56,665 bases of DNA from a virus, in IMG/VR virus record IMGVR_UViG_3300010370_000044, positions 1 to 56,665 of that record. One strand, given 5' to 3'. A program made the position numbers and the translations under genes. Shown here piece by piece: positions 34,686 to 39,600 of the stretch. Under the pieces are notes generated by a model. It did not search any database. It was not told the origin of the DNA and worked only from the letters and a program-made list of their open reading frames with translations. Each line of letters opens with the position of its first letter. Positions within the stretch are counted from its first letter, which is position 1.

Positions 34686-34713
34686 AAAAAGAAAGCCCCC
34701 GATGAAGGGGGCT
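34686..34713 (-). terminator. Intrinsic terminator of the small-gene array
   Basis: Minus-strand stem AGCCCCC-TTCATC-GGGGGCT followed by TTCTTTTT. It should stop leftward transcripts from the 34.9-39.9 kb array. The flanks 34579-34685 hold no convincing gene; a 28-codon rightward frame (34618-34704) ends inside this hairpin. Confidence 0.8.
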
Positions 34714-35151: not shown

Positions 35152-35529
35152 TCAATAGTCATCATCGTACCGCTCTTCCCACTCGGATCGGGGGCGGATA
35201 GACTGGCCTGCCCAGTTATAGCACTTACCACAATTGCAGTAGACGAGTCCATCACTATCGGCGTACATCTCCAACTCAAGACCACACTCGCATTCGCATA
35301 CTCGTGGATGTGTTACCAACCAACTCCAGTCCTTGACATATGGCGGTTGTGTGGTGTTTATCTCTCCAGACATACACTTTTTGTAATTCTCCACCGCCTC
35401 AGGGGGAAGGGACTCTACGTTCCCATCTTTATCGCATGGGAAAGAGTACGCTCTGCCACCTCCTATATCGAATTGAATCTCGTAAGCGGTGTGCAATTCT
35501 TGGTAGGATTCTTTGATAGTTTTAAGCAT
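35152..35529 (-). CDS. Zinc-binding small protein
   Basis: A 125-aa protein (MLKTIKESYQELHTAYEIQF). The C-terminal part has CECECGLELEMYAD and VYCNCGKCYNW, a cysteine-rich zinc ribbon, and ends in an acidic tail. Possible nucleic acid or protein binding. A tRNA-like element ends 15 nt before its ATG. Confidence 0.72.
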   Translation of the reverse strand: MLKTIKESYQELHTAYEIQFDIGGGRAYSFPCDKDGNVESLPPEAVENYKKCMSGEINTTQPPYVKDWSWLVTHPRVCECECGLELEMYADSDGLVYCNCGKCYNWAGQSIRPRSEWEERYDDDY

Positions 35530-35544
35530 GGGTGTATAGTTTAG

Positions 35545-35585
35545 GAACTGGTTGTCATCGAAGACCACGGCATATCCGCCAGTTC
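35545..35585 (-). ncRNA. Mini tRNA-like leader element G
   Basis: 41 nt preceded by CCCCC. Stem GAACTGG/CCAGTTC; hairpin CGG-ATATG-CCG; T-arm-like hairpin with a TTCGAT loop closed by GTC/GAC. Ends 15 nt before the ATG at 35529 and starts 7 nt (including CCCCC) after the preceding stop. Confidence 0.55.
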
Positions 35586-35592
35586 GGGGGCG

Positions 35593-35787
35593 TTAGTCGT
35601 TATTGTATTCATCCACATACCACTCTGTAATATGAATCAGCCGATCCAGTAACTGGTCTTCTGACTCTTTAGCAAGGGCGATAAAATCATCGTGGGTGAA
35701 CTCGTCCAATTCAGCACCAGTGAATTCTACGATGGCGGAGATGAGTTTCTCTCGGAAGGTTGACGAGGGGAGTGTCTTCTTTTTCAT
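35593..35787 (-). CDS. 64-aa acidic helical protein
   Basis: Starts MKKKTLPSSTFREKL; then acidic helices (ISAIVEFTGAELDEF, DFIALAKESEDQLLDRLI) with a TEWYVDEYNND end. Leader AAACCTAAACACC. Function unknown. Confidence 0.68.
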   Translation of the reverse strand: MKKKTLPSSTFREKLISAIVEFTGAELDEFTHDDFIALAKESEDQLLDRLIHITEWYVDEYNND

Positions 35788-35806
35788 GGTGTTTAGGTTT
35801 GATGAG

Positions 35807-35850
35807 GAACCGAGGGCAGTATCGCTCTGCCTTAACCACTCTCTCGGTTC
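35807..35850 (-). ncRNA. Mini tRNA-like leader element F
   Basis: 44 nt. Stem GAACCGAG/CTCGGTTC (8 bp, both sides changed relative to other copies), middle AGAGTGGTTAA like a tRNA D-arm, T-arm-like GGCAG-AGCGATA-CTGCC. Ends 19 nt before the ATG at 35787. Confidence 0.55.
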
Positions 35851-35858
35851 GGGTTGAA

Positions 35859-36056
35859 TCATAATTCAGATAGCACTTCCGATATTGCAATCTTGACCAA
35901 GTAGTTTTCACGAAGGCCATTGTCAATGAAATAGACTTTCTTAGTGTCTCTACAAACGATTGCAATGGTGCGTCCACCTTCGTTGTCGTCTTCGGTCTCC
36001 CAATAATCTACGTGAGTGTAGTTTTGTTCGTCCGTGTAGTCGGTTCTGATTTCCAT
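35859..36056 (-). CDS. 65-aa beta-rich protein
   Basis: Starts MEIRTDYTDEQNYTHVDYWE, then GRTIAIVCRDTKKVYFID and a C-terminal helix. Leader AAACCCTAATCAAC. No family recognised. Confidence 0.7.
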   Translation of the reverse strand: MEIRTDYTDEQNYTHVDYWETEDDNEGGRTIAIVCRDTKKVYFIDNGLRENYLVKIAISEVLSEL

Positions 36057-36076
36057 GTTGATTAGGGTTTGTTGAG

Positions 36077-36122
36077 GAACTGGCCTCGGTGTCGCTCCGA
36101 GATCGGCCGTGCCTACCAGTTC
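36077..36122 (-). ncRNA. Mini tRNA-like leader element E
   Basis: 46 nt. Stem GAACTGG/CCAGTTC, small hairpin GGC-ACG-GCC, T-arm-like TCTCGG-AGCGACA-CCGAGG. Ends 20 nt before the ATG at 36056. Aligns closely with element D (AGGNNNGNCCGA middle). Confidence 0.6.
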
Positions 36123-36129
36123 GTGGGTG

Positions 36130-36390
36130 TCAGCTATTAACTCGTTCAGCAAATTCCTTTAGCGTGTAGTAGTTGTAAGAATCGGACTCGTATAAATCAG
36201 AAAGCAATTCCTCGGAGCAGTAGAACCGCTCTACTTCTTTGCCGAAATAGACACGCTTGACAAGGTCATCAAGGGTTGGGAATATAATCGCCTCACCATC
36301 CTCAATTAGGACATGGATGGCGTTTCCATTGTTGTCGTGACGGCACTCGTAGGATTCGTCTGCTTTGCGAAGATGTTCGTTGTGTAACAT
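36130..36390 (-). CDS. Hypothetical 86-aa protein
   Basis: Starts MLHNEHLRKADESYECRHDN; beta-rich with GNAIHVLIEDGEAIIF and a C-terminal helix (LKEFAERV). Codes for a compact acidic domain of unknown function. Leader CTCAAACCT. Confidence 0.7.
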   Translation of the reverse strand: MLHNEHLRKADESYECRHDNNGNAIHVLIEDGEAIIFPTLDDLVKRVYFGKEVERFYCSEELLSDLYESDSYNYYTLKEFAERVNS

Positions 36391-36409
36391 AGGTTTGAGG
36401 TTTGATGAG

Positions 36410-36452
36410 GAACTGCCGAAGGAGTCGAACCTTCGTGAGACCATCGCAGTTC
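36410..36452 (-). ncRNA. Mini tRNA-like leader element B
   Basis: 43 nt, preceded by CCCCC. Acceptor-like GAACTGC/GCAGTTC (7 bp), a 10-nt GATGGTCTCA in place of the D and anticodon arms, and T-arm CGAAGG-TTCGACT-CCTTCG with a canonical T-loop. Ends 19 nt before the ATG at 36390. Element A has the same plan with different paired bases. Confidence 0.65.
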
Positions 36453-36458
36453 GGGGGC

Positions 36459-36533
36459 TTACATGAGGTTATCCGCAAGACACGATAAGAGCATGAGGAT
36501 AATCATGGCGATGATTTGGAATGCACCTTTCAT
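36459..36533 (-). CDS. 24-aa hydrophobic peptide
   Basis: One membrane helix with a basic start (MKGAFQIIAM) and a Cys in LLSC. Its ATG overlaps the preceding stop (ATGA) and its leader reads TTAAACCCAAAACC. Resembles toxin-like or small membrane peptides; function unknown. Confidence 0.5.
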   Translation of the reverse strand: MKGAFQIIAMIILMLLSCLADNLM

Positions 36534-36736
36534 GGTTTTGGGTTTAATTGTTTTGAGATTTCATCCTGCGCCCACTGAGGTAGTTCTGATACACTCATGA
36601 CGCTCTCGTTTCCGTAGCAGTCCTCCCAAGCATCATCGTAGTTGTCGTAGATGATGATGTCTCCATTGGGGTAGCATACTACAGACTCGTTTGCTTTGTC
36701 AACCAAGACAAAATCGGTAGGGTTAATTGCTTTCAT
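36530..36736 (-). CDS. 68-aa acidic protein
   Basis: Starts MKAINPTDFVLVDKANESVV; then YPNGDIIIYDNYDDAWED and an acidic helix. Stop overlaps the next ATG; ATG overlaps the previous stop. Function unknown. Confidence 0.7.
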   Translation of the reverse strand: MKAINPTDFVLVDKANESVVCYPNGDIIIYDNYDDAWEDCYGNESVMSVSELPQWAQDEISKQLNPKP

Positions 36737-36828
36737 GGTTTCTCGTTTAGTTGTTTAATCTCCTCGGCCAGTTGGAGGATGTCGTTGATGGCCTCTTCCC
36801 ATTCGGGAGGTAGTGTTACTGAGCGCAT
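36733..36828 (-). CDS. 31-aa helical peptide
   Basis: Starts MRSVTLPPEWEEAINDI and continues as an acidic amphipathic helix. Both ends overlap neighbouring genes (13 bp upstream; ATGA downstream), which is the main support. Confidence 0.55.
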   Translation of the reverse strand: MRSVTLPPEWEEAINDILQLAEEIKQLNEKP

Positions 36829-37091
36829 AAGTCCCAAGGTTGAAGGTTTTTGATGGAGGTTTCGTCTAGGTCGAACATCTCAAGGATGAAGGAGGCAAGG
36901 TCTTGTCTCGCCTCGTCTCCACGGAGGTCGTTTGTCCCGATCCGATCGGCTACTTGTCCCCCAGTCATTCCGAGGACTCTTCGGCAGAACTTTGCATCCT
37001 GACCGAGGTAAAGAGTGCGACCGAAGGCGGTCAATGTCCAGTCATGCCCGAATCCGTATGGACTAGGGTGGGTTTCGATGATAGGTTTCAT
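36816..37091 (-). CDS. Hypothetical 91-aa protein
   Basis: Starts MKPIIETHPSPYGFGHDW; contains GRTLYLGQDAKFCRRVLGM and a helical C-terminus (ARQDLASFILEMFDLDE). No family recognised. The 5-bp gap upstream indicates tight coupling. Confidence 0.7.
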   Translation of the reverse strand: MKPIIETHPSPYGFGHDWTLTAFGRTLYLGQDAKFCRRVLGMTGGQVADRIGTNDLRGDEARQDLASFILEMFDLDETSIKNLQPWDLCAQ

Positions 37092-37096
37092 ATTTC

Positions 37097-37369
37097 TTAG
37101 TTTTTGTTGAATAATTTCTTGAACCCTTTGTACACACCCGATTTGTAGGAGTGTGACTGATGGGCTAGGTGTCGGGCGAGGAAGATGGCGGTGATGGGTG
37201 CGTAGCGCAGTTCGACTTCCTCCATCAGGGCGGAGAAGGTCTTGCCATCCCGAAGGTGGGCGAATACCTCATCTTCCGTGGTGGCAATCGGGTCGTCGAA
37301 CTTGCCATCAATACGCGCTTGGATGTGGGCATCCGCGATGCGCTTGATTTCGGGGGTGATTCTTTTCAT
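37097..37369 (-). CDS. Hypothetical helical 90-aa protein
   Basis: Starts MKRITPEIKRIADAHIQARI; mostly helical, ends basic (YKGFKKLFNKN). Leader TTAAACCTAACACA after tRNA-like element C. Function unknown. Confidence 0.7.
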   Translation of the reverse strand: MKRITPEIKRIADAHIQARIDGKFDDPIATTEDEVFAHLRDGKTFSALMEEVELRYAPITAIFLARHLAHQSHSYKSGVYKGFKKLFNKN

Positions 37370-37384
37370 TGTGTTAGGTTTAAG

Positions 37385-37432
37385 GAACTGCCTTGGGTCA
37401 CGAACCCAGTGCCATCGGGATGGTGGCAGTTC
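37385..37432 (-). ncRNA. Mini tRNA-like leader element C
   Basis: 48 nt, preceded by CCCCC. Stem GAACTGCC/GGCAGTTC (8 bp), hairpin CCAT-CCCG-ATGG, T-arm-like TGGG-TTCGTGA-CCCA. Ends 15 nt before the ATG at 37369. Confidence 0.6.
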
Positions 37433-37439
37433 GGGGGTG

Positions 37440-37685
37440 TCAGATTTCGACTAGTTCTCCATCCTTCACGATATACTGAAAGTCATCCGTATCCTCCCAC
37501 TCAGTCCAGTAGTAGGCCTCATCCTCGTATGCTTCCTCAAGGGTATCGTATCCCAATTGCTGAGCATATTTGAGTGCATCGGCCTCGTACTTGGCATAGT
37601 AGCATCCATCTCCGAAGCAGTAACCTTCGTTCATTCCTTCGCCAGTGGCATCGCATTGGCGGGCATAGATTTGATTCTCTTGCAT
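37440..37685 (-). CDS. Conserved acidic Cys/Tyr-rich protein
   Basis: An 81-aa protein with QCDATGEGMNEGYCFGDGCYY, then helices and DDFQYIVKDGEL. The 'C.A.G.GMN.GY' pattern is one I associate with small proteins of aquatic Bacteroidota and their phages. Function unknown; possibly metal binding. Confidence 0.72.
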   Translation of the reverse strand: MQENQIYARQCDATGEGMNEGYCFGDGCYYAKYEADALKYAQQLGYDTLEEAYEDEAYYWTEWEDTDDFQYIVKDGELVEI

Positions 37686-37688
37686 AGG

Positions 37689-37841
37689 TTAGTCGTTTAA
37701 TGAGTTAAGGTGGTCAATTTCTTGTTCGTCAAGGTAGATGCAGAGTCCGTTGTCTAACTTGATGTAGTTAGGGCCTACTTCGAAGACCTTCTTGCCAACT
37801 AGCCACTCTGCGGCCTCTTGTGTAATGGTTGTTTTTGTCAT
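37689..37841 (-). CDS. 50-aa small protein
   Basis: Starts MTKTTITQEAAEWLVGKKVF, followed by a beta hairpin (YIKLDNGLCIYLD) and a short helix. Leader CTAAACCTATTACC after element D. Function unknown. Confidence 0.62.
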   Translation of the reverse strand: MTKTTITQEAAEWLVGKKVFEVGPNYIKLDNGLCIYLDEQEIDHLNSLND

Positions 37842-37855
37842 GGTAATAGGTTTAG

Positions 37856-37901
37856 GAACTGCGGTCGGTTTCGCTCCGACTTCGGTCACACCTCGCAGTT
37901 C
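37856..37901 (-). ncRNA. Mini tRNA-like leader element D
   Basis: 46 nt, preceded by a C-run. Stem GAACTGCG/CGCAGTTC (8 bp), hairpin GGT-GTG-ACC, T-arm-like GTCGG-AGCGAAA-CCGAC. Ends 14 nt before the ATG at 37841. Confidence 0.6.
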
Positions 37902-37910
37902 GGGGGGGGG

Positions 37911-38123
37911 TCAGTAACCTTGCAGTTCCATCACCTTCTTTTCATCGGGTGCTGACACCACTTTGGACTTGACCTTGAATTCGATTTCGTAATAAGCGGC
38001 ATCCAAGAACCCTCTAATGTGTTCGTTGAATGTCTCAAGGAATTCCTTGTTTGAAAAGTCAACTCCATCTGCAACCCAATTGTCGCTGACTGAAAGGTCT
38101 AGTTGTAGTTTCCACTTTTGCAT
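37911..38123 (-). CDS. 70-aa protein
   Basis: Starts MQKWKLQLDLSVSDNWV; then a helix (FLETFNEHIRGFLDA) and a strand (YEIEFKVKSKVVS), a plausible ferredoxin-like half. Leader AACCCTAAACCT. Function unknown. Confidence 0.68.
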   Translation of the reverse strand: MQKWKLQLDLSVSDNWVADGVDFSNKEFLETFNEHIRGFLDAAYYEIEFKVKSKVVSAPDEKKVMELQGY

Positions 38124-38127
38124 AGGT

Positions 38128-38364
38128 TTAGGGTTTATCGTTTGGGAATATGTTTTGGAATTCTCCAGTCTCTTCATTGAGAGCGATTACAACTGGATGA
38201 ATTGTGGTATCATAGATTTCGATGCGTACTTCATAGCCCTCCTCTTCGGTAAACTTGTGTTTGAGTACGGAGGATACGGAGAACGCATCTCTTCTATATA
38301 CTATTGATTCGCCAGTATTGAATAAAAAAACTCCATTGTGGAAAACACTGATTACGTACTGCAT
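38128..38364 (-). CDS. 78-aa beta-rich protein
   Basis: Starts MQYVISVFHNGVFLFNTGES; alternating strands and EVRIEIYDTTIHPVVIALN. Leader AAACCTAGACCT after element A. Function unknown. Confidence 0.7.
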   Translation of the reverse strand: MQYVISVFHNGVFLFNTGESIVYRRDAFSVSSVLKHKFTEEEGYEVRIEIYDTTIHPVVIALNEETGEFQNIFPNDKP

Positions 38365-38383
38365 AGGTCTAGGTTTTGATAAG

Positions 38384-38426
38384 GAACTGGGAGCGGAATC
38401 GAACCGCTCTACGACCATCCCAGTTC
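38384..38426 (-). ncRNA. Mini tRNA-like leader element A
   Basis: 43 nt, preceded by CCCCC. Acceptor-like GAACTGG/CCAGTTC, 10-nt GATGGTCGTA, T-arm GAGCGG-TTCGATT-CCGCTC with a canonical T-loop. Ends 19 nt before the ATG at 38364. Same plan and length as element B with every T-stem pair different: strong support for a selected RNA fold. Confidence 0.65.
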
Positions 38427-38436
38427 GGGGGTGCAT

Positions 38437-38625
38437 TCAACTCAGAGACACTTGCTTACAAAAGAGTCTCCATTGCATATCACGGAAATACTCCTTAGGG
38501 TCTCGCCCTAACTCACGTAGGGCTTTCTCCATACGCTTGTGGGTAGATAACTGGGTTTGTCCGCGACGGATAATTGTGCCGTCTGCCTTGGCGGAGAAGA
38601 TGGGGGACTTGATACGCTTACGCAT
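38437..38625 (-). CDS. 62-aa basic protein
   Basis: Starts MRKRIKSPIFSAKADGTIIR; very basic, with helix HKRMEKALRELGRDPKEYF. Possibly nucleic acid binding. Leader CTAAACCTAATCCC. Confidence 0.65.
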   Translation of the reverse strand: MRKRIKSPIFSAKADGTIIRRGQTQLSTHKRMEKALRELGRDPKEYFRDMQWRLFCKQVSLS

Positions 38626-38635
38626 GGGATTAGGT

Positions 38636-38956
38636 TTAGTTTTTGAATTGAGATAAATCAATCTTGATGTCGTTTTTTGGTCTGAATGTGGGGAAGAGTT
38701 GGTATGATAACTCAACAATCTCTTCGGTAATCTCATACGTTTCATTGTAGAAGCCATAATCAAACCAAGTAAGACCGCTTGTGAACAACTCATTTTTGAT
38801 GAATTCGGTGACCGCTTTTGTAGTTACCACTCTGCCATTATTGGCTGATGATATCAAACAAATTGCTTTCTGAATCATTTCGGCATCAATTAGGTAGGAG
38901 ATTGAAATTTTCGCTACCAATTGGCAATCTGATTTGCGCTGATAATTTGCTTTCAT
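38636..38956 (-). CDS. Hypothetical 106-aa protein
   Basis: Starts MKANYQRKSDCQLVAKISIS; helices (AEMIQKAICLISSAN, TKAVTEFIKNELFTSG) then YNETYEITEEIVELSYQ. No family recognised. Its leader is unusual: a hammerhead ribozyme ends 12 nt before the ATG, so the mature message probably begins with the ribozyme. Confidence 0.72.
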   Translation of the reverse strand: MKANYQRKSDCQLVAKISISYLIDAEMIQKAICLISSANNGRVVTTKAVTEFIKNELFTSGLTWFDYGFYNETYEITEEIVELSYQLFPTFRPKNDIKIDLSQFKN

Positions 38957-38968
38957 GTGATTAGGTTT

Positions 38969-39022
38969 AAAGTTTCGTCCTACTGGGACTCATCAGTACG
39001 GCGATTATCAGCCGTAGACTTT
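38969..39022 (-). ncRNA. Type III hammerhead ribozyme
   Basis: Minus strand, 5' to 3': stem III strand AAAG, cleavage triplet GUC (cut after C, between 39017 and 39016), stem I hairpin UACGGC/GCCGUA with an 8-nt loop, core CUGAUGA, stem II GUCC/GGAC, core GAAA, then CUUU closing stem III. All invariant core positions are present. Cleavage would release the upstream RNA and leave a 5'-OH message for the gene at 38636. Activity is predicted, not shown. Confidence 0.9.
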
Positions 39023-39023
39023 T

Positions 39024-39600
39024 TATCCAACCTATCGGAGAATGGACTGACGATGCGACACCGCATCCGTTTACACCCTCGTTCCGACTCCGGAAGAGCA
39101 TTCGATAGTCAGCGTACACGCCTTGGGGTTGTCTCTCCCCGACTATCCCCCTTTAGGCAGACATCACGTCTGCTTTCAATACACCGAAGGGGTAGTGGTT
39201 TCAAAAGTTTAGAGCCATTGAGTGGGGCTGACCGAGTCGGGCCGTAGCCGTAGGTCGGTGGTCATCCGAGCATCCTGATTGGTACTGACGGAGGAGAGGG
39301 CGGTAGGTGACTACTGATGCCTTCGCTCGTTTCCCGATGCCATCGCCGTGCATTTATCGTGGTTTGGTGTTCCCGAAGGAGTGCGTTACCCTAACACGTT
39401 GTGGCGAACCTTTGAAAGAACTTCGTCTAGCCGTTTCCGTTAGACAATGCAAGAATACGACGGCCCAAACCGATTTCGAACACTAGACCCCGACTTTTTT
39501 TAAAAAACAGGGGTATGCACTTAGAAACGGATACGTGTCTGTATTTAAATCTTAGGGATTTGTGGCAGATGTGCCTTATGAAAAGGGGGCAGTTCGGGGG
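39024..39600 (-). ncRNA. Large structured non-coding RNA candidate
   Basis: About 580 nt with no convincing gene on either strand. Minus-strand folds include GCAGAC/GTCTGC, a junction ATAGTC...GACTAT enclosing GGGG/CCCC and GCG/CGC hairpins, TTCCG/CGGAA, GATGCG/CGCATC, and UNCG tetraloops in cUACGg (39246-39251) and cUUCGg (39375-39380). UNCG loops appear only in the leftward reading. It starts 4 nt after the stop of the wHTH gene with the recurring CCCCCGAACTG and ends at the hammerhead. No known RNA family recognised. Confidence 0.5.

Follow-up and report, generated by a model that had tools for sequence, protein, structure and literature searches.

tRNA-like elements at the gene junctions of a phage small-gene array and their possible role as processing marks

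Short folded elements separate the small genes of one array in the viral record IMGVR_UViG_3300010370_000044 (IMG/VR), and the question they raise is what a phage does with tRNA-like shapes between its genes. The window referred to below is the whole stretch that was analysed, positions 1 to 56,665 of that record (56,665 nucleotides, nt). The initial annotation placed seven elements, A to G, on the minus strand between a stop codon and the next ATG, and we verified the coordinates of all seven: the 3' foot of each lies 14-20 nt and the 5' foot 56-66 nt before the ATG. The open reading frames downstream encode 50-125 amino acids (aa), and a C-rich leader, mostly CCCCC, stands 5' of every copy.

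That these elements, which we call mini-tRNAs, have a tRNA-like fold is strongly supported, both by their matches to a covariance model (R1) built from 56 relatives with the window excluded and by covariation in those relatives. R1 recovers all seven with expectation values (E) from 9e-15 to 6e-9, and the next match in the window has E = 0.03. The elements, all on the minus strand, are as follows.

Element A, class I, 38384..38426, minus strand: 7-bp acceptor and T-arm GAGCG-GTTCGATTC-CGCTC, linker GATGGTCGTA; R1 64.2 bits, E 9e-15; ATG 19 nt downstream
Leader of element A, 38431-38427, minus strand: CCCCC
Element B, class II, 37856..37901, minus strand: 8-bp acceptor, D-like hairpin, T-arm GTCGG-AGCGAAA-CCGAC; R1 E 1.1e-13, class II covariation; ATG 14 nt downstream
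Element C, class III, 37385..37432, minus strand: acceptor, 4-bp hairpin CCAT/ATGG, T-arm loop TTCGTGA; R1 E 3e-12, fold z -3.0; ATG 15 nt downstream
Element D, class I, 36410..36452, minus strand: acceptor and T-arm CGAAGG-TTCGACT-CCTTCG; R1 E 9e-15; ATG 19 nt downstream
Element E, class II, 36077..36122, minus strand: acceptor, D-like hairpin GGC/GCC, T-arm CTCGG-AGCGACA-CCGAG; R1 E 3e-11, class II covariation; ATG 20 nt downstream
Element F, class V, 35807..35850, minus strand: acceptor GAACCGAG/CTCGGTTC, D-loop-like GAGTGGTTAAGG, T-arm GGCAG-AGCGATA-CTGCC; R1 E 6e-9; ATG 19 nt downstream
Element G, class IV, 35545..35585, minus strand: acceptor, hairpin CGG/CCG, T-like hairpin with the 6-nt loop TTCGAT; R1 E 5e-9, R2 51.9 bits, E 8e-12; ATG 15 nt downstream

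Fold and classes of the elements

The elements follow a common plan of a 7-8 bp acceptor, a short D-region with a conserved G, a 5-bp T-arm and a 7-nt loop containing CG. Acceptor and T-arm together make 12-13 bp, as in tRNA, and the conserved G of the D-region could form the 19-56 elbow pair with the C of the T-loop. The anticodon arm is absent from every class. There are at least six classes, which differ in the D-region and retain the tRNA-like acceptor and T-arm and the C-containing T-loop; their D-regions are as follows.

Class I: linker RATGGTY
Class II: 2-bp hairpin
Class III: 4-5 bp hairpin
Class IV: CGG/CCG hairpin with a 6-nt T-like loop
Class V: tRNA-D-loop-like GAGTGGNTAAGG
Class VI: GC..GC

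Judged as complete tRNAs the elements fail, since the window yields neither an RF00005 cloverleaf with an anticodon arm at the gathering score nor an ARAGORN call. Judged by a 7-bp acceptor on a 5-bp T-arm with C56 in the T-loop they qualify: classes I-III and V have 7-8 bp plus 5 bp, CG occurs in the T-loop of nearly all copies in the largest set, and class IV conforms only partly because of its 6-nt loop and 3-4 bp stem. At the sites of A-G, ARAGORN and Rfam, RF00005 included, gave no match, and the Rfam ribozyme families gave none at E up to 5; Rfam has no entry for the RNA family of A-G.

Two details of the initial annotation need revision here. A and B had been described as an acceptor plus T-arm joined by about 10 nt; this bare form is confined to A and D among the seven, while B, like E, has a D-like hairpin of 2-3 bp. 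The NNCGANN loop ascribed to each element is present except in C (TTCGTGA) and G (TTCGAT), so that it is not universal.

Two genes elsewhere among the loci also have unusual tRNA shapes. At L102 (3284-3343, minus strand) a 60-nt tRNA gene has a D-arm and a T-arm, lacks an anticodon stem and is flanked by terminator-like hairpins; it is a possible intermediate from tRNA to mini-tRNA. At L112 (4313-4441) a tRNA-like gene of 129 nt has an abnormal anticodon region.

Relatives in other phages and covariation

A pattern search of viral contigs, with CCCCCGAACTG and CAGTTCC fixed in the pattern, gave 52 loci; members can be recognised in well over half of these, and many of them have two to four copies. 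Across the window plus 27 further array loci R1 made 122 matches, on a single strand at each locus. On 40 whole viral records the strong matches are grouped within a few kb per record, and the seven records among them whose pattern hit was seemingly due to chance have zero or one weak match. Altogether the family comprises about 134 distinct copies in 28 phage contigs, always on the strand of the array. In these copies the median distance from the stop codon to the acceptor start is 7 nt. From the acceptor end to the ATG it is typically 14-21 nt, with median and mode both at 19 nt, and 107 of the 129 measured lie at 12-24 nt; the tails between are A/C-rich and almost without G.

R1 does not capture the whole family. 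A descriptor run on 508 unassigned junctions matched 11, two of them with a GAACTG acceptor, versus none of 1,524 shuffled junctions; the members that R1 missed have other acceptors (AAGTAGG/CCTACTT, AAAAGTA/TACTTTT, CAGGGCG/CGCCCTG, GAGAGCG/CGCTCTC and others). By itself, a loose descriptor that specifies structure and leaves the sequence unconstrained does not reach significance, with 7 matches in the window (6 of them true) versus 3.1 per shuffled window.

The relatives carry the case for selection. In the 56 relatives the covariation score is 0.539 versus 0.106 when shuffled, 98.4% of cells are paired, and slid pairing registers score at most 0.12; with 114 distinct sequences, acceptor included, the values are 0.543 versus 0.117 and 97.7%. 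T-stem positions show up to four Watson-Crick types (GC, CG, AU, UA). The selection pattern had fixed CCCCCGAACTG and CAGTTCC, so that conservation of these two stretches in R1 partly reflects how its members were chosen; the pattern put no constraint on the T-stem or on the innermost acceptor pair. Class IV has an acceptor free of GAACTG, and there 6 of the 7 pairs change on both sides and the two hairpins covary too, while the 2-bp D-like hairpin of class II shows GC to CG changes. Selection of a folded RNA is therefore strongly supported in homologous phages, as had been claimed from the window's own copies, although seven copies of one phage would have been insufficient as proof.

Class IV reaches beyond the arrays. 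Unrelated phages, some of which have Shine-Dalgarno sites, carry single copies or pairs of it: in L129 and L132 these immediately follow a stop codon and precede a start codon, and the large phages L126, L127 and L131 have class IV copies as well. Copies with unrelated acceptors are as follows.

Class IV in L129: 1800-1844 and 2238-2282
Class IV in L132: 3904-3948
Class IV in L127: 2685-2726
Class IV in L135: 5999-6043
Class IV in L126: 3783-3827

These copies suggest that class IV has a longer history and a broader spread than the arrays of Bacteroidota type. The L135 copy, the sole one of them tested, has no match in Rfam. Pattern hits for class IV in L125, L128 and L130 were set aside; they have no acceptor stem and look like chance.

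Some tails in L012, L017, L018, L035 and L052 hold an extra hairpin between the mini-tRNA and the ATG, in the forms CAATGCC..GGCA and CAATACC..GGTATT, with apparent compensatory changes.

The stop-to-start slot and what the elements may do

The same slot holds other RNAs in these arrays. About 15 hammerhead ribozymes, of types I and III, lie just upstream of start codons, one of them in the window.

Type III hammerhead ribozyme heading the array, 38967..39024, minus strand: Rfam RF00008, 44.3 bits, E 2.6e-7

Its score is about 4 bits under the RF00008 gathering score of 48.5; Rfam and a descriptor find the core CUGAUGA..GAAA, three stems and an NUH cut site, with cutting predicted before base 39016, 60 nt upstream of the ATG at 38956. 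tRNA genes with the same CTAAA..ATG tail occupy the slot as well (tRNA-Thr in L097, a tRNA with anticodon CUA in L098 and tRNA-Trp in L106). Where a gene of one phage is preceded by a mini-tRNA, its orthologue in another can have a hammerhead instead, as in the pairs L110_6718/L106_4892 (79% identity), L103_5613/L104_940 (37%) and L097_5087/L115_1642 (43% over 35 residues). The distance from cut to ATG is 19-22 nt for type I hammerheads and 19 nt in 6 of 8, some of these loci being near-duplicates, which equals the modal 3'-foot distance of the mini-tRNAs; for type III it is 59-62 nt, close to the 5' foot of A-G. Similarity between elements at orthologous genes barely exceeds that of random pairs (median 0.52 versus 0.46). 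Element and gene are thus loosely linked, indicating that the array reshuffles, and 8 of 14 near-identical element pairs precede unrelated genes.

We consider it somewhat probable that A-G are processing marks between the genes of a polycistronic phage transcript, cut by host tRNA-processing enzymes. Hammerheads self-cleave, and tRNAs are excised by ribonuclease P (RNase P) and RNase Z; for elements that amount to a tRNA minus its decoding end, and that interchange with both, the simplest reading is that the tRNA enzymes cut them. The acceptor stacks on the T-arm and the D-region could dock on the T-loop, giving the tRNA elbow, the part that RNase P reads. Host RNase P would then cut at the 5' foot (CCCCC^GAAC), for which the geometry is suitable, and free the upstream message a few nt past its stop codon, after which the structure would cap the next message; alternatively, RNase Z may remove the structure at the 3' foot and leave a leader of about 19 nt before the ATG. 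The initial annotation had suggested punctuation or 5' protection of messages, and the hammerheads and tRNA genes in the same slot and the orthologue swaps argue independently for punctuation, 5' protection alone being the less likely role; we infer the cleavage, the enzyme and the side of the cut, as well as any benefit to message stability or balanced expression.

As precedents, one published proposal has hammerheads dividing the long transcripts of phages into mRNAs of one gene each (PMC3088659), and the known substrates of RNase P include phage RNAs, tRNA-like structures and mRNAs (PMC11143913).

Several findings weigh against processing. After the 3' foot comes CU(A/C)A instead of CCA (encoded tail CUAA or CUCA), and in some bacteria efficient cutting by RNase P needs CCA. 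Folded in isolation, B and F favour at minimum energy an inner pairing other than the consensus. Many array genes are without an element, which is thus not obligatory, and one class IV copy (L097/L134) precedes a terminator instead of a start codon. RNase P also gives no explanation for the strong conservation of CCCCCGAACTG in the largest subset.

The alternative that survives best, which we rate as rather unlikely, is that the elements are uncut, stable structures of the 5' untranslated region that shield the start region, keep out exonucleases or scanning ribosomes, and hold an unstructured A/C-rich leader open for initiation without a Shine-Dalgarno site. The tight spacing to the ATG, close to where the 5' edge of an initiating ribosome normally lies, would suit this, as would the nearly G-free tails and the fact that few window genes have a Shine-Dalgarno sequence; yet a plain hairpin would suffice for it, and both the tRNA-like T-arm and T-loop across at least six classes and the replacement by self-cleaving ribozymes and tRNA genes are left unexplained. 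Less likely again is a regulatory RNA whose tRNA shape is sensed by a phage or host protein or a ligand that switches translation of the next gene. Several conserved unpaired positions and the place of class IV upstream of Shine-Dalgarno genes in quite different phages fit such a switch, but many D-region classes serve different genes within one phage, and the near-random similarity of elements at orthologous genes speaks against it too.

An unfamiliar self-cleaving ribozyme would account for the slot shared with hammerheads and is nevertheless very improbable, given at least six D-region cores on one scaffold, no common catalytic core, conserved positions that are those of the tRNA elbow, and the absence of an Rfam ribozyme match. 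Equally improbable are recombination joints at the DNA level through which small genes could be shuffled, comparable to the promoter/stem-loop cassettes of T4-type phages: near-identical elements do precede unrelated genes and genes do swap elements, but there are compensatory changes in every helix, so that pairing is kept rather than sequence, which joints for homologous recombination would conserve.

Other candidates were rejected. The R''/R' motifs of integron attC sites do not fit by eye, no later strand pairing with the linker as in HDV-like ribozymes was found by eye, and T-box and tmRNA gave no Rfam match, only the T-arm of A being weakly like cyanobacterial tmRNA.

To the processing reading we add a broader proposal, on which we are evenly divided: that phages of several bacterial groups share a punctuation code, in which the slot holds a tRNA, a mini-tRNA or a hammerhead, all of them cutting the transcript, with the leader length set and the mini-tRNA as a non-decoding RNase P/RNase Z mark. 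If so, DNA phages process operon transcripts by tRNA mimicry, as mitochondria do with tRNAs, and the long-puzzling role of phage ribozymes gains a testable frame, in which hammerhead and mini-tRNA cuts should be equivalent. It would also give a processing site that is compact and portable, and a large RNA family that Rfam does not yet include.

The array, its host and comparison with known systems

The array and the features that bound it 3' are as follows.

Array of same-strand small genes punctuated by A-G, 35152..38956, minus strand: products of 50-125 aa where tested
Intrinsic-terminator-like hairpin 3' of the array, 34694..34713, minus strand: neighbour hairpin at 34744-34723

Ten array products were tested; none matched Pfam, and three had weak PHROG matches of unknown function. 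We found no minus-strand terminator-like hairpin between the hammerhead and about 34.74 kb, which makes one long transcript plausible. Upstream of the hammerhead, about 570 nt (39600-39030, minus strand) hold no convincing gene and may be a structured noncoding leader.

Copies of CCCCCGAACTG that lack a matching 3' arm lie at 39599-39592, 34468-34461 and 31791-31784 (minus strand); the copy at 39599 directly follows a stop codon, and several relatives have similar copies at like places. CCCCCGAAC was considered as a signal common to all junction RNAs and rejected, as it accompanies some hammerheads, also occurs in terminators and is missing from many elements with other acceptors. It is the left arm of an intrinsic terminator at 33673-33640 (minus strand) in the window, and also in relatives, so the mini-tRNA leader may derive from a terminator arm. 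At 34800-34765 (minus strand), CTTCCGATGACGTGTCGCATACGAAGTCGGGG, also found between genes of the relative L110, resembles a folded RNA. A 92-nt junction before a small gene (32679-32588, minus strand) has the inverted repeats TCGGC/GCCGA and GTTGC/GCAAC and matches neither the mini-tRNA nor the hammerhead pattern.

The host is probably a member of the Bacteroidota, because the terminase and primase-helicase are distantly related to proteins of Flavobacterium and Cellulophaga phages and because few genes have Shine-Dalgarno sites. A scan of GTDB contigs for a host returned eight contigs of unrelated phyla, about chance level, and the phage collection held no close DNA relatives; in MW202828, whose terminase is the nearest among annotated phages, neither R1 nor R2 gives a notable match.

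In the open-access literature we found no description of such elements in phages; most subscription papers lay outside that search. Several known systems resemble them in part. Prophage hammerheads (Perreault et al. 2011, PMC3088659) occupy the same gene-junction slot and repeat in arrays, one of them 13 nt before a start codon; they self-cleave, whereas mini-tRNAs lack the hammerhead core and would depend on an enzyme of the host. The theta ribozymes (Kienbeck et al. 2024, PMC10879173) are likewise small phage RNAs and tie ribozymes to tRNA maturation, but they are HDV-like and lie beside tRNAs, while mini-tRNAs are tRNA-like elements before genes. The substrates of RNase P among polycistronic mRNAs and phage RNAs (M3 RNA, P1/P7 C4 RNA and T4 gene 32 mRNA; reviewed in PMC11143913) are also tRNA-like folds in non-tRNA transcripts; these are isolated cases, whereas mini-tRNAs form a dedicated, repeated family. 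The tRNA-like domain of tmRNA has an acceptor and T-arm and no normal anticodon arm, as in mini-tRNAs, but tmRNA is aminoacylated and is a long RNA with a tag reading frame, a part that mini-tRNAs lack. In mitochondrial tRNA punctuation, as proposed here, tRNA shapes stand between genes and their release by RNase P and RNase Z leaves the mRNAs; the mitochondrial tRNAs are real and decoding, whereas mini-tRNAs have no anticodon arm and in several copies consist of acceptor and T-arm only.

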